DNA of 64,000 bases, taken from Paenibacillus sp. FSL H8-0548 (GTDB lineage Bacteria > Bacillota > Bacilli > Paenibacillales > Paenibacillaceae). Position numbers and translations under genes: made by a program. Location: NCBI RefSeq assembly GCF_038630985.1, contig NZ_CP152049.1, forward strand, positions 5,290,501-5,354,500. Reading direction: 5' to 3'. Below are positions 32,301-35,861 of this stretch, one piece after another (within the stretch, counting starts at the first letter, position 1; each line of letters begins with the position of its first letter). The notes under the pieces are model-generated. The model was not told where the DNA came from and did no database searches. It saw only the letters and a program-made list of their open reading frames with translations.

Positions 32301-32429
32301 TGCTGCTCGATCACGGCTGAGCGCCGTTTCCCAATCGCCGTATGGAATAAGCTCTGCGCGCGGAGACACCGTGCCTAGCTCCAGTACCTGCAAATTGTTG
32401 AAATCTGGTCCGTTCTGATTAAAGATCAT
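29316..32429 (-). CDS. LacZ-type beta-galactosidase, GH2
   Basis: Start chosen at ATG 32427-32429 ([14 protein letters not shown]) because GGAGGCGTC lies just upstream; the in-frame ATG at 32444 would put that site inside the gene. It overlaps the preceding kinase gene by 11 bp. The 1037-residue protein has all five LacZ domains: jelly roll ([23 protein letters not shown]), Ig-like, TIM barrel with acid/base in [11 protein letters not shown] (about residue 462) and nucleophile in [14 protein letters not shown] (about 525), second Ig-like, and the C-terminal beta-gal small-chain domain ([15 protein letters not shown]). It is cytoplasmic and would release galactose, or possibly another beta-sugar, from imported oligosaccharides. 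Confidence 0.93.
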
Positions 32430-33828
32430 CTGAGACGCCTCCATGCTTCACTTTACTGAAAAAATCCGTCCCTCCTACCTGACCGCCCTTCAGTGTAAGC
32501 TCCAAGCCATCGAGAGCGGGATCATCGGAGAAAACACGGCATAAGGGTGCGCCGGGCGCTAAAGCAGCGATACATTCCAGTGCATAGACACCAAGCTCTC
32601 GGGTCACATAACCTGACGTGTCACCCCCAGCAATGACTAAACGGCTAAGCCCTTCCTCCTTGATCAGCTCTCGTGCCAAAGAACCGAGGATCTCCCCGAG
32701 AAGACGGCTGCTGTCCTCCGCCTGGTATCCATGCGAGGCAAGCGCGGTACGGAATGCGGCAATGGCTGGATCATTTGCTCCCGCTGCCGAATATAACAAG
32801 ACGCTTTTCCCTTCTTTCAGCAGCCTTCGCGCGTCTTCAAGCAGCTGCTTGCGTGCTTGCACAGCTAACTTAGGGTCAATCAGCTCCCAAGCTGGTACTG
32901 GAATGCCCGCAAATCCTGCATGCAGGGCGTGTTCAATCTGAGCTTTTGTCATCGGTGAGCAGCTTCCCGATACGACAAGCAGCTGCTCCACAGCGGATAC
33001 AACAGAATTGGGCCGTCCTCCATCCGCCAGCAAGCCGCTCGTCCTCCAGTATGCGGTAAGCGCGTACTCTATTCCGGACGATCCCATAACAAAAAGCCCT
33101 TCTGAACGATTCGCTTCCTCCCAAATTAAACAGCCAGCAGTCTCTAAGCGAGCGTCATCCAGGACATCGAACAGCAGCAAATCAGGCTGCTCGCTCTCTA
33201 GCAGGCTCCTATAGCGAGCCTGCACCGCTTCCCATGTACCTTGCAGCTCCAAAATATTCATAAGCGCAATCTTCAGCGCACTTTGCTCCGCAAAATGCTT
33301 GCGCAAATCAGCTTCCTTCATTGGCGTAATCGGATGGCGAGACATGGTCGGATGCCGGTCAAGGCGGTGAACCTGGCCGCCTGCATCGGCAAAATGATTG
33401 CCAAACAGCGTATAGCGCCCTAAGTAAGGAACGCCGACTAACAGTGGAATCATATGTTCTCCGAATACAGAGCGGCCAATCTCCGCCGCTTTGCCGATAT
33501 TTCCGATGGATGGCGACGAATCGAAGGTCGAGCATAGTTTGTAATGTACGATCGCCGCTCCCGTTTGCTTCAATTGCTCAAAAATCGGACGCAGCTCCTG
33601 CTCAGCCTCAGCTGGCGGAAGTGAACGTCCGATTCCGGCAACTCCGAAGGCATCCAGCTCAGCAAAGCGCCTTTGCAGAAGCTCCTCGCTTGGCGGCTCC
33701 AGAAACAGAGCCGTCCTCACGCCTGCGCGGAACAAAGACTCCAGCACATCCGTCGAGCCCGTGAAGTCATCCCCGTAATAGCATAGCCATTTGGTGAAGG
33801 GTTTCGCCTTTGAAGCATTCATCGTCAT
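32419..33828 (-). CDS. DUF1537 four-carbon/acid-sugar kinase family protein
   Basis: A 469-residue ATP-dependent kinase. The N-terminal domain ([23 protein letters not shown], with the GDDFTGS substrate motif, then [18 protein letters not shown]) and the C-terminal nucleotide-binding domain ([46 protein letters not shown]) are both complete. The family phosphorylates acid sugars such as threonate, erythronate and 3-oxo-isoapionate. The gene lies 6 bp after the RuBisCO-like gene. In known D-apionate pathways a DUF1537 kinase makes the phosphorylated substrate of an RLP, so the pairing suggests an OiaK-like role (inference from neighbours). Confidence 0.9.
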
Positions 33829-33834
33829 ATCCAG

Positions 33835-35094
33835 TCAGCCCTTCCCGTATTTTTCAATCGCTCGACGAAGCGCAGAATGCTGCTCTGCATAAGCATCAAG
33901 CCCAATGCCCTGCACAGCCGCCTCCCAGCCCTGCTGCATGCTCTTGAAGCCGGCTCCCGCCCCATCTGGATGAGCGAGTATACCGCCACCTGCCAAATGC
34001 ATAACGTCCATGGTTGCAGTAGCTGCAAAGGTTGCCGGCGCCATCCCCGCCCACTGCCCAGAGGATACAACCGGCATCGTCCTATATCCCTCATGCATCG
34101 GCTTCAAGCAGGCTTGAATAGAACGAACAACCGATTCATTGCTCTCGTAAAATTTGCTGTTCAAGCCGTTGACATGCAGATGGTCTGCCCCCGCCAGCCG
34201 GCACAGCTTCTGATACGCGGAGAACTCGAAGCCCAGCATGGGACTGCGCGTCATCATGCCCCATTGGTTCCGGTGACCATGAATGGGCACCTCGCTATAG
34301 CGGTTCAGATGCGCCAAGCCTGCAAGCCCAACACTCATGATGCTCACCATGACGCAATTTCCGCCCGCTTTTACGACGAGCTCGTGTCCCCGCTCCATTT
34401 CATCGATATCCCCGGTAATATTGAACGCATACATGATCCTTTTGCCCGTCACATCAGCAGCTTTATCGACCGCCTCCATAACCGCCTTCACCCTTTTCTC
34501 CAAAGGGGCATAAGGTGCATTTGCATTCAGCTCATCATCCTTGATAAAATCAAGCCCCGCCGCCGAAACATTCAGAATCATACGCTGCAAATCCTTCATA
34601 TCAAGCCCGATGCTTGGCTTAACAATCGTCCCCACGATCGGGCGATCATAAACCCCCGTAAGTTTGCGAGTGCCATTGATCCCAAACTTCGGACCTGGAT
34701 AACGGGTCGTAAATGCTGTGGGAAGCTCCAAATCGACAAGTCGAAGCCCTGACAGCTCCTGAAGCTCGAACAAATTGCCTGCAATAGCCGACATTAGATT
34801 TGGAATCGAAGGACCAAAATTATGCAGCGGAAAGGAGATCGCAATCAAACCGCGCCGATATTGCCCATCATGTCCGGCTGGCGTCTTAGAGCCGGGCAAG
34901 GATGGCTCCAAGACCGTTTCCAGCTCCGTAATTTTCTCAATACGTGCGCCAAACCTTTCTTTTAACGCATCCGTCTCGCCAGGAACCGCGGTGAATGTGC
35001 CCGTCGATTGCTCACCGGCGATCACCTCCGCCGCTCTCTCCAGCGAATAAGGCGTTTCTACCCGGTAGACCGCTACCACTCTATCCTCATTCAA
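33835..35094 (-). CDS. RuBisCO-like protein (form IV-type large subunit homologue)
   Basis: 419 residues from a TTG (35092-35094) behind AGGAGG with eight-base spacing. It has an N-terminal alpha/beta domain and a C-terminal RuBisCO barrel. Equivalents of the RuBisCO catalytic set are present: Lys159 in TIVKPSIGL (K175), Lys185/Asp187/Glu188 in FIKDDELNAN (K201/D203/E204, metal and carbamate), His272-His274-Arg275 in PIHGHRNQWG, loop-6 Lys314 in NGLNSKF (K334) and Ser345 in SSGQWAG (S379). K177 is replaced by Ser161. There is no small-subunit gene or phosphoribulokinase, so CO2 fixation is not the role. The kept carbamate Lys and loop-6 Lys argue for a decarboxylase or transcarboxylase-type reaction as in OiaX/OiaT, rather than the MtnW enolase. 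Confidence 0.92.
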   Translation of the reverse strand: MNEDRVVAVYRVETPYSLERAAEVIAGEQSTGTFTAVPGETDALKERFGARIEKITELETVLEPSLPGSKTPAGHDGQYRRGLIAISFPLHNFGPSIPNLMSAIAGNLFELQELSGLRLVDLELPTAFTTRYPGPKFGINGTRKLTGVYDRPIVGTIVKPSIGLDMKDLQRMILNVSAAGLDFIKDDELNANAPYAPLEKRVKAVMEAVDKAADVTGKRIMYAFNITGDIDEMERGHELVVKAGGNCVMVSIMSVGLAGLAHLNRYSEVPIHGHRNQWGMMTRSPMLGFEFSAYQKLCRLAGADHLHVNGLNSKFYESNESVVRSIQACLKPMHEGYRTMPVVSSGQWAGMAPATFAATATMDVMHLAGGGILAHPDGAGAGFKSMQQGWEAAVQGIGLDAYAEQHSALRRAIEKYGKG

Positions 35095-35192
35095 ATGCTT
35101 AACCTCCTGCCCTCATCTATCTAAAAGCTAAACGAACATCTACTTTTAACTATCCAAGCAGCTTTCTCCATCTCGTTGCCTATTTTTTTGCT

Positions 35193-35861
35193 CTACTCTG
35201 CATCCAGCTGCTCAAGCACGGCTTTTACCTGCTCCACACCAAGCCGTGGGCTAGACAGCACCGGCTTGCCTATCGCTTCGCGAAGGACTGCCTCCATCCG
35301 AGCCATCGAGCCCTGTGCCAGCACCAGCACGTCGGCTGCCTCACAAACCTGCTTCGCCGTTTCAAGCAAAATTCGGTCATGCTCATCAGGCCTGCCGCTG
35401 ACTAATGCATCAAACGCCCCTGCGGCAAGTCCGTCAACTAGCGTTATTTCTTTTCCTGCCAAATCTGCTTTCTTCCTAATCAGCCGCATGGTCGGCTCTA
35501 AAGTAGAAGGCAGCGTCGCAAGCACTGCGATTTTGTCATACTCAGCCACCGCTTTAGCAGCCATCGCTTCATCAATTTTTACAATCGGAATACCGATCTT
35601 CCCCTTTGCCGCATCCGCAACCTCGCCTACGGAGGAGCAGGTGTTCAATATCACGTCAGCCCCGAGCTCCTCACCATTAGCATAATACTGAGTCAGCCGC
35701 TTCGTAACGCCCGCCGGAATATGGCCCGCCTTCACCACATCTCCAATCAAGCTGTCATCTATAATATTAACGAGACGAACATCAGGCAGCAGCTCCTGAA
35801 ACACCGCCTTTAGCGGATCTGACAAACCTTGGCCCGTATAAACCGCAACCACCGTTCTCAT
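35193..35861 (-). CDS. Asp/Glu/hydantoin racemase superfamily protein
   Basis: A 222-residue protein whose two-domain fold is recognised by VILNTCSSVGEVADAA, IPIVKIDEAMAAKAV and KIAVLATLPSTLEPT. Racemases use two cysteines. Here the first is present (NTCSS, near residue 81), but the position usually holding the second reads VLAQGSMARM with no Cys, so a classical two-base racemase reaction is unlikely. Maleate-isomerase-like, decarboxylase-like or binding roles remain possible. AAAAGGAGGCG precedes the ATG. It lies between the GH127-like and RLP genes in one transcription direction, so a role in processing an acid-sugar intermediate is plausible but unproven. Confidence 0.8.
   Translation of the reverse strand: MRTVVAVYTGQGLSDPLKAVFQELLPDVRLVNIIDDSLIGDVVKAGHIPAGVTKRLTQYYANGEELGADVILNTCSSVGEVADAAKGKIGIPIVKIDEAMAAKAVAEYDKIAVLATLPSTLEPTMRLIRKKADLAGKEITLVDGLAAGAFDALVSGRPDEHDRILLETAKQVCEAADVLVLAQGSMARMEAVLREAIGKPVLSSPRLGVEQVKAVLEQLDAE

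Follow-up and report, generated by a model that had tools for sequence, protein, structure and literature searches.

Which sugar does a RuBisCO-like protein (RLP) act upon when its gene adjoins that of a DUF1537 kinase in the soil bacterium Paenibacillus sp. FSL H8-0548? The genome of this strain is a single contig of 7.35 Mb (NZ_CP152049.1), and the question is raised by a stretch of 64,000 nucleotides of it (positions 5,290,501 to 5,354,500), hereafter the window. On the minus strand, the gene of an RLP of 419 residues with a TTG start (33835-35094; Pfam RuBisCO_large 7.5e-68 and RuBisCO_large_N 7.8e-14) is followed after 6 bp by that of a DUF1537 (four-carbon acid sugar) kinase of 469 residues (32419-33828; SBD_N 1.1e-54 and NBD_C 1.8e-36), and gene coordinates and Pfam thus bear out the arrangement described in an original prediction made from the sequence alone. 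We have computed the gene content, protein families, conserved sites and co-occurrence of this locus as well as its separation from apionate genes. On this basis, we propose that the pair belongs to an operon for side chain B of rhamnogalacturonan II (RG-II) and that kinase and RLP would break down aceric acid, with 3-phosphoglycerate and L-lactate as the probable products, a proposal for and against which we judge the case to be evenly balanced. More tentatively, the RLP would carry out the second half of RuBisCO chemistry on aceric acid, together with a new hydrolase of clan GH-P and an isomerase of racemase fold. The genes at 32419..35861 to which the original prediction was confined (RLP, kinase and a racemase-like gene) are real, but much of the unit had been omitted, for example its constant partner U574 (35966-37690). 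Neither this GH-P glycosidase nor the GH2, GH78 and apiose genes had been mentioned, and it is these that point to RG-II. The core unit consists of U574, the racemase-like protein, the RLP, the kinase and GH2.

We first consider what kind of RLP this is. In an alignment with the form I large subunit L096, it retains E60, N123, K175, K201, D203, E204, H294, R295, H327, K334, S379, G403 and G404, Lys185 being the equivalent of K201. At the position of K177 it carries a serine (Ser161) and so lacks the Lys177 of RuBisCO forms I-III; the catalytic residues are therefore kept and lost as the original prediction had listed them. A true RuBisCO is ruled out by scores, by this missing lysine and by the tree. 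The closest named relatives are Paenibacillus proteins, and the automatic name 'ribulose-bisphosphate carboxylase' is common on relatives from Paenibacillus and Cohnella. MtnW, the DK-MTP-1P enolase, has the RuBisCO fold in common with the window RLP, which scores far below both MtnW cut-offs (189.8 bits of 513.6 and 229.9 of 409) and lies outside the MtnW clade, so that scores, residues and tree agree with the earlier view that it is not MtnW. The sole other RuBisCO-family match of the genome is a true MtnW (621.8 bits, cut-off 409), a far outgroup in the tree.

The best NCBIfam models are OiaX for the RLP and OiaK for the kinase, and the apionate pair to which the two proteins had been likened is thus indeed their closest known counterpart. 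In the R. etli p42f operon (L083), an RLP likewise adjoins a DUF1537 kinase (43% and 46% identity), and OiaX and the window RLP alike keep Lys175, Lys201 and Lys334 and have lost K177. That operon additionally holds triose-phosphate-isomerase, RpiB-type, PGDH_C (ApnO-like), ribose-type ABC and Gfo/Idh genes. With the OiaX model (NF042437), the window RLP reaches 472.8 bits against a cut-off of 700, which the R. etli OiaX, taken as positive control, passes with 783.9. The OiaK model (NF042436, cut-off 700) is useless as a discriminator: the window kinase obtains 490.2 bits, and the kinase beside the named R. etli oiaX fails too, with 473.2. All three named OiaX proteins (L083, L092 and L097) have lost E60, N123, H327 and S379, which read Asp, Gly, Gln and Gly or Cys, whereas the window RLP keeps the four, as do 44 of 44 U574-type rows and all 13 apionate-context rows outside OiaX, the Proteobacterial ones (L084, L088, L089, L081) included. 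By score and by residue pattern, the window RLP is not OiaX proper.

A quick tree of 79 rows with a very long outgroup placed its root inside the U574 group, and a more careful one was therefore built without such an outgroup, from 49 of 97 rows and without the MtnW, form I and Streptomyces rows. In it, OiaX stands apart (100/100), and 19 of the 20 U574 rows form a clade with L038 and L040 (99/98), near a clade of five Paenibacillaceae apionate-context RLPs. Neither tree includes L045 or L069 in the main U574 clade, the careful one placing both just outside it, and in the first tree the Streptomyces row is outside as well.

The contexts of these RLPs were then compared. The locus set comprises 80 named loci, those of 395 with the greatest likeness to the window RLP; 78 were tested, L003 and L006 being left out as their contigs break off immediately upstream of the RLP. 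As neighbourhood clusters c27 and c33 proved to be antisense open reading frames over U574 and RLP, we relied on tblastn in place of open-reading-frame counts, and we took the D-apionate oxidoisomerase (ApnO) as the PGDH_C family, PF16896. U574 is present in 42 of the 78 loci, and in 39 both U574 and the racemase-like gene lie near the RLP, far beyond chance. The 42 loci with U574 have the racemase-like gene in 39 cases (it is not within reach in three), GH2 in 16, the ABC/sensor set in 27, ApnO in one and a class II aldolase in none; the respective counts for the 36 others are 2, 0, 0, 10 and 16. When neighbours other than the core and ABC genes were scanned with Pfam, the 25 families listed for each side differed likewise: GH2 comes top near U574 (8, followed by GH78 with 5, GH95 with 3 and GH42 with 2; 86 of 170 eligible neighbours scanned) and Zn-dehydrogenases elsewhere (12, with 5 DctM and 3 PGDH_C; 100 of 231). 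Three contexts can thus be told apart in this RLP group: that of U574; an apionate context of RLP, kinase and ApnO, in some loci with a Gfo/Idh gene and in one (L074) with a match to our ApnL-like query; and a third with a Zn-dehydrogenase and an OtnC-like class II aldolase. Loci of this third context (L052, L055, L061, L065, L068, L079 and others; L051, L053, L060, L072) also display a GntR regulator and a TRAP transporter, or an MFS permease; their substrate may be another branched acid sugar that enters the cell in free form.

Since the best 80 of 395 loci are not representative, co-occurrence was also counted in 295 Paenibacillaceae genomes, with an RLP threshold of E up to 1e-80 and U574 orthologues taken at 65% identity or more, the next matches being at 31%. 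An RLP is found in 38 genomes, U574 in 31, both in 28 and PF16896 in 25. Among the 38 U574 genes, a few of them seen only in part, 33 have an RLP gene within 10 kb. Conversely, within the same distance, the 52 RLP genes have U574 in 33 cases, ApnO in seven, neither in 12 and both in none. An AptA-like transketolase (70% or more; with one internal stop in G070 and G192 and partial in G224) accompanies U574 in 31 of 31 genomes, against 31 of the 264 others and one of the ten with an RLP but without U574. Fisher tests give 1.5e-27 for U574 and RLP, 5e-25 for U574 and the transketolase and 0.002 for ApnO; as these counts take no account of relatedness, the values are not real probabilities.

These data bear directly on ordinary D-apionate catabolism, the role suggested by the original prediction, in which the kinase would make 3-oxo-isoapionate-4-phosphate and the RLP would decarboxylate it or transfer its carboxylate, the upstream enzymes being unrecognised or encoded elsewhere. 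The OiaX and OiaK models, the nesting of the U574-type RLPs near apionate-context ones, to three of which the window RLP is 61-66% identical, and the single locus L045, which holds both the U574 and the ApnO sets, all speak in its favour. Against this, no apionate oxidoisomerase had been noticed in the window, and a search for PF16896 extends this to the whole genome (no match, compared with matches in three of three positive-control genomes). The family is missing altogether from 21 of the 28 genomes with U574 and RLP, the window's included, and across the 295 genomes U574 and ApnO never occur near the same RLP gene. In five of the seven genomes that have both U574 and PF16896, separate RLP copies serve the two contexts; of the remaining two, G090 has an ApnO-side RLP plus another more than 10 kb from U574, and G135 a U574-side RLP only. 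Moreover, the run seems to provide separate kinase and transketolase genes for its apiose. Apionate as the substrate is thus left unsupported and plain apionate catabolism is an unlikely role for this pair, while the suggestion that the route may differ from known ones seems right.

If not apionate, what could U574 tell us about the substrate? Alignments and a predicted structure place U574 (35966..37690, minus strand) in clan GH-P, as a divergent member of GH127/146. In its AlphaFold2 (AF2) model (pLDDT 87.8) we recognise the barrel plus beta-sandwich fold of this clan, and Foldseek returns GH127/GH146-type structures at ranks 1-21. The residues of a Cys3-Glu zinc site (E298, C300, C396, C397) are present in 50 of 50 homologues and were aligned by hhalign with the ExC and CC motifs of five GH127-domain proteins, so that a zinc site can be predicted. 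Four arginines (R119, R191, R246 and R387) are likewise invariant in the 50 homologues and are candidates for binding the carboxylate. PF20736 is matched by 45 of the 50 alignment members and PF07944 by 30, with E up to 1. The (alpha/alpha)6-type barrel, the beta-sandwich and the zinc-site residues are all common to BT1003, described as a GH127 aceric acid hydrolase (PMC10850190; PMC5698469). Identity within the clan is 12-16% in fold alignments, and 13% to BT1003 by Foldseek. This distance leaves room for another explanation, namely that U574 would release some other furanoside, for instance beta-L-arabinofuranose, the usual substrate of clan GH-P, while racemase-like protein, RLP and kinase act on a co-imported branched acid; characterised GH127/146 enzymes are indeed reported to be mostly beta-L-arabinofuranosidases (PMC10850190). 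Yet the linkage of U574 with the RLP is tight and recurs in Streptomyces, and therefore the product of U574 and the substrate of the RLP probably stand on one chemical line. We consider the other-furanoside explanation rather unlikely. Proteins of DUF5060, DUF5605 or apiosidase type occur near U574 in some loci (L099, 4257-5804; L028; L093, 27797-30192), and two apiosidase-like (PF13204) genes (L108-L109) are found elsewhere in the genome.

Aceric acid is 3-C-carboxy-5-deoxy-L-xylose, a branched acid sugar of side chain B of RG-II, a plant pectin found across land plants. To our knowledge it is known only from RG-II, and in chain B it is followed by rhamnose. The genes around the pair form a colinear run of sixteen on the minus strand, from 52852 to 29316 with gaps of at most 104 bp, and with GH2, U574, GH78 and apiose genes this run has fitting families for the removal of galactose, aceric acid and rhamnose and for the use of apiose. 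Its last gene encodes a GH2 beta-galactosidase (29316..32444; Glyco_hydro_2_C 3.5e-96), the family of BT_0993, which cuts D-galactose-beta-1,2-aceric acid in RG-II (PMC11739564), and further upstream lies a GH78 alpha-L-rhamnosidase (44455..47136; Bac_rhamnosid6H 1.1e-119). Side chains A and B are both described as attached to the backbone via an apiose-rhamnose unit (PMC12282258). The beginning of the run matches the aptA, aptB and aplK genes named for D-apiose use in E. coli SE15 (PMC13001218): an AptA-like N half of a split transketolase for apulose-4-phosphate (50545..51414; Transketolase_N 5.1e-49), an AptB-like C half (49599..50552) and an AplK-like FGGY kinase (apulose kinase; 48058..49602). 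Their identities of 47, 40 and 37%, over 270, 302 and 504 residues respectively, establish homology, with Pfam in agreement for all three. A fucose-isomerase-type sugar isomerase (51407..52852; Fucose_iso_C 22.9 bits, below the cut-off of 29.3), found in five of the 42 loci with U574 and in none of the 36 others, is the candidate D-apiose isomerase. The kinase and transketolase of the D-apiose isomerase/AplK/AptAB route and an isomerase-like gene are present, but here, unlike in the known route, in one colinear run with the RLP cassette. Among them, a nucleoside-hydrolase-like protein (47142..48053; IU_nuc_hydro 2.3e-23) could, as a guess, be an apiofuranoside hydrolase.

As a 2-hydroxy-3-keto acid whose carboxylate stands on a quaternary (fully substituted) carbon, the 2-ketose of aceric acid has the motif of both 3-oxo-isoapionate and the six-carbon intermediate of RuBisCO. 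The route that we infer would be intracellular. Fragments of side chain B would be taken up by the ABC importer, GH2 would strip the capping beta-1,2-galactose from aceric acid, which U574 could then free through Zn-cysteine catalysis, and the rhamnose and apiose below would fall to GH78 and the apiose operon. The racemase-fold protein (in Streptomyces, a reductase plus a Zn-dehydrogenase) may convert the aldose to the 2-ketose, of which the DUF1537 kinase would phosphorylate the CH2OH beside the ketone. Finally, the RLP, with Mg2+ and a presumably carbamylated Lys185, would remove the carboxylate to give an enediolate, re-add it on the neighbouring carbon and hydrolyse the C-C bond, yielding 3-phosphoglycerate and L-lactate. 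The conservation of E60, N123, H327 and S379 favours such a fuller RuBisCO-type reaction over plain decarboxylation. By its description, OiaT, a 3-oxo-isoapionate-4-phosphate transcarboxylase/hydrolase (PMC6302742), would have a chemistry like that expected here, with the difference that it acts in apionate breakdown, and the window genome lacks the oxidoisomerase family of that pathway. We read the U574-type RLPs as probably having inherited an OiaT-like reaction from an apionate ancestor, as alignment and tree suggest. One could also assume the same aceric acid route with an RLP that is a plain decarboxylase, as is OiaX, its best-matching named model; CO2 and 5-deoxypentulose-1-phosphate would be formed, and an aldolase would split the latter into dihydroxyacetone phosphate and acetaldehyde. 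The four residues lost in named OiaX but kept here go against it, and so does the lack of a recognisable aldolase among the 15 genes of the run that were scanned, the rest of the genome not having been searched for one, as well as in the 42 loci with U574, where the class II aldolase query found no match. We thus hold the decarboxylase variant to be improbable.

The least sure step of the aceric acid route is the isomerisation. The Asp/Glu-racemase-fold protein (35193..35861, minus strand; PF01177 1.9e-19) has an AF2 model of pLDDT 95.4, whose best Foldseek matches are hydantoin, aspartate and glutamate racemases. Asp/Glu racemases have two conserved catalytic cysteines. Across 46 homologous rows, this protein shows a single invariant one, Cys75 (46 of 46), the only other cysteine column above a third being at position 28 (15 of 46); at the second site, Ser185/Met186 are found when the protein is aligned, weakly, with 1jfl (E 0.064). 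That it could act as an aldose-ketose isomerase is a guess, and the weakest link of our proposal, made because the pathway lacks an isomerase and because the Streptomyces loci lack the racemase-like gene.

These Streptomyces loci provide independent support for a link with RG-II. On one plasmid (L093), U574, RLP and kinase genes are accompanied by two GH78, a GH2, a beta-galactosidase, an alpha-L-fucosidase and two GH28 genes, and a second, unannotated one (L094) shares the U574, RLP, kinase, fucosidase and GH28 genes, as judged by tblastn. No racemase-like match was obtained by tblastn in the Streptomyces locus stretch. An alcohol dehydrogenase gene lies beside the RLP and an aldo/keto reductase gene about 14 kb away; reduction followed by oxidation would replace the isomerase, much as has been suggested for E. 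coli, where an apiose isomerase is missing (PMC13001218). Another variant is seen in three genomes (L098-L100) that have U574 and the racemase-like gene and no RLP match; the racemase-like gene is followed there by a divergent DUF1537 kinase gene and, instead of the RLP, by a gene of the beta-keto acid cleavage family (BKACE). As BKACE enzymes are described to act on beta-keto acids, including sugar-derived ones (PMC6365646), a beta-keto acid at this point of the route is supported. In haloarchaea, a Natronosalvus plasmid (L085, 5844-11704) carries an RLP (56%) and a DUF1537 kinase near a racemase-like gene (35%), along with SDR, Zn-dehydrogenase and cupin genes.

As for the remaining genes of the run, the Pfam scan covered 15 of the 16. 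A sensor histidine kinase (42583..44388) and an AraC-type response regulator (37710..39290), both recognised by Pfam, enclose a sugar ABC importer with a binding protein (41115..42479; SBP_bac_1 1.9e-35) and two permeases. One of these (39331..40149) matches BPD_transp_1 (6e-12); the other (40149..41093), left out of the scan, was named by its position and its conservation with the cassette, being present in 27 of the 42 loci with U574 and in none of the 36 others. Divergent from the run, on the plus strand, is a LacI-family regulator (53125..54183; LacI-type NCBIfam matches, all below cut-offs), which adjoins the isomerase gene also in L007, L012, L017 and L034. Outside the run, the stretch 55454-59798 of the window encodes a DUF1861 protein, a nucleotidyltransferase with a ManC-type helix domain, a 365-residue protein without Pfam match and a glycosyltransferase.

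Several observations weigh against the aceric acid proposal. First, the window U574 passes no Pfam cut-off (12.7 of 24.2 bits for PF20736, and no PF07944 match), and by Z alone its closest PDB chains are barrel-only proteins rather than GH127. The acid/base Glu of GH127, which we take from HypBA1 to lie 16 residues before the Glu of ExC, falls in a gap of the hhalign alignment. Seven further genes of GH127 domain (PF07944; L101-L107) exist in the genome, and the actual aceric acid hydrolase could be encoded by any one of them. Second, only a minority of the 42 U574 loci have GH2 (16), GH78 (6) or apiose genes (5-6) within reach, and apiosidase domains, found in two of the 100 scanned neighbours at loci without U574, do not figure in the list of 25 families for the U574 loci. 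Third, the RLP of L069 groups weakly with apionate RLPs, and L045, where the U574 cassette adjoins ApnO, speaks as well against demoting apionate. Fourth, we know of no precedent for a racemase-fold protein acting as an aldose-ketose isomerase. The main tension, however, comes from the BKACE loci: the usual BKACE mechanism takes a proton from the alpha carbon, and the proposed aceric ketose has no hydrogen there, which strains our choice of exact substrate.

In the titles and abstract starts that our literature search covered, we found no description of a microbial catabolism of free aceric acid. The automatic name 'ribulose-bisphosphate carboxylase' borne by the relatives of this RLP should not be taken literally, nor should these proteins be filed as OiaX. 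If our proposal is true, aceric acid would be a second branched acid sugar for the RLP/DUF1537 family, with a concrete reaction, and this would explain why the window RLP keeps nearly the whole active site of RuBisCO.

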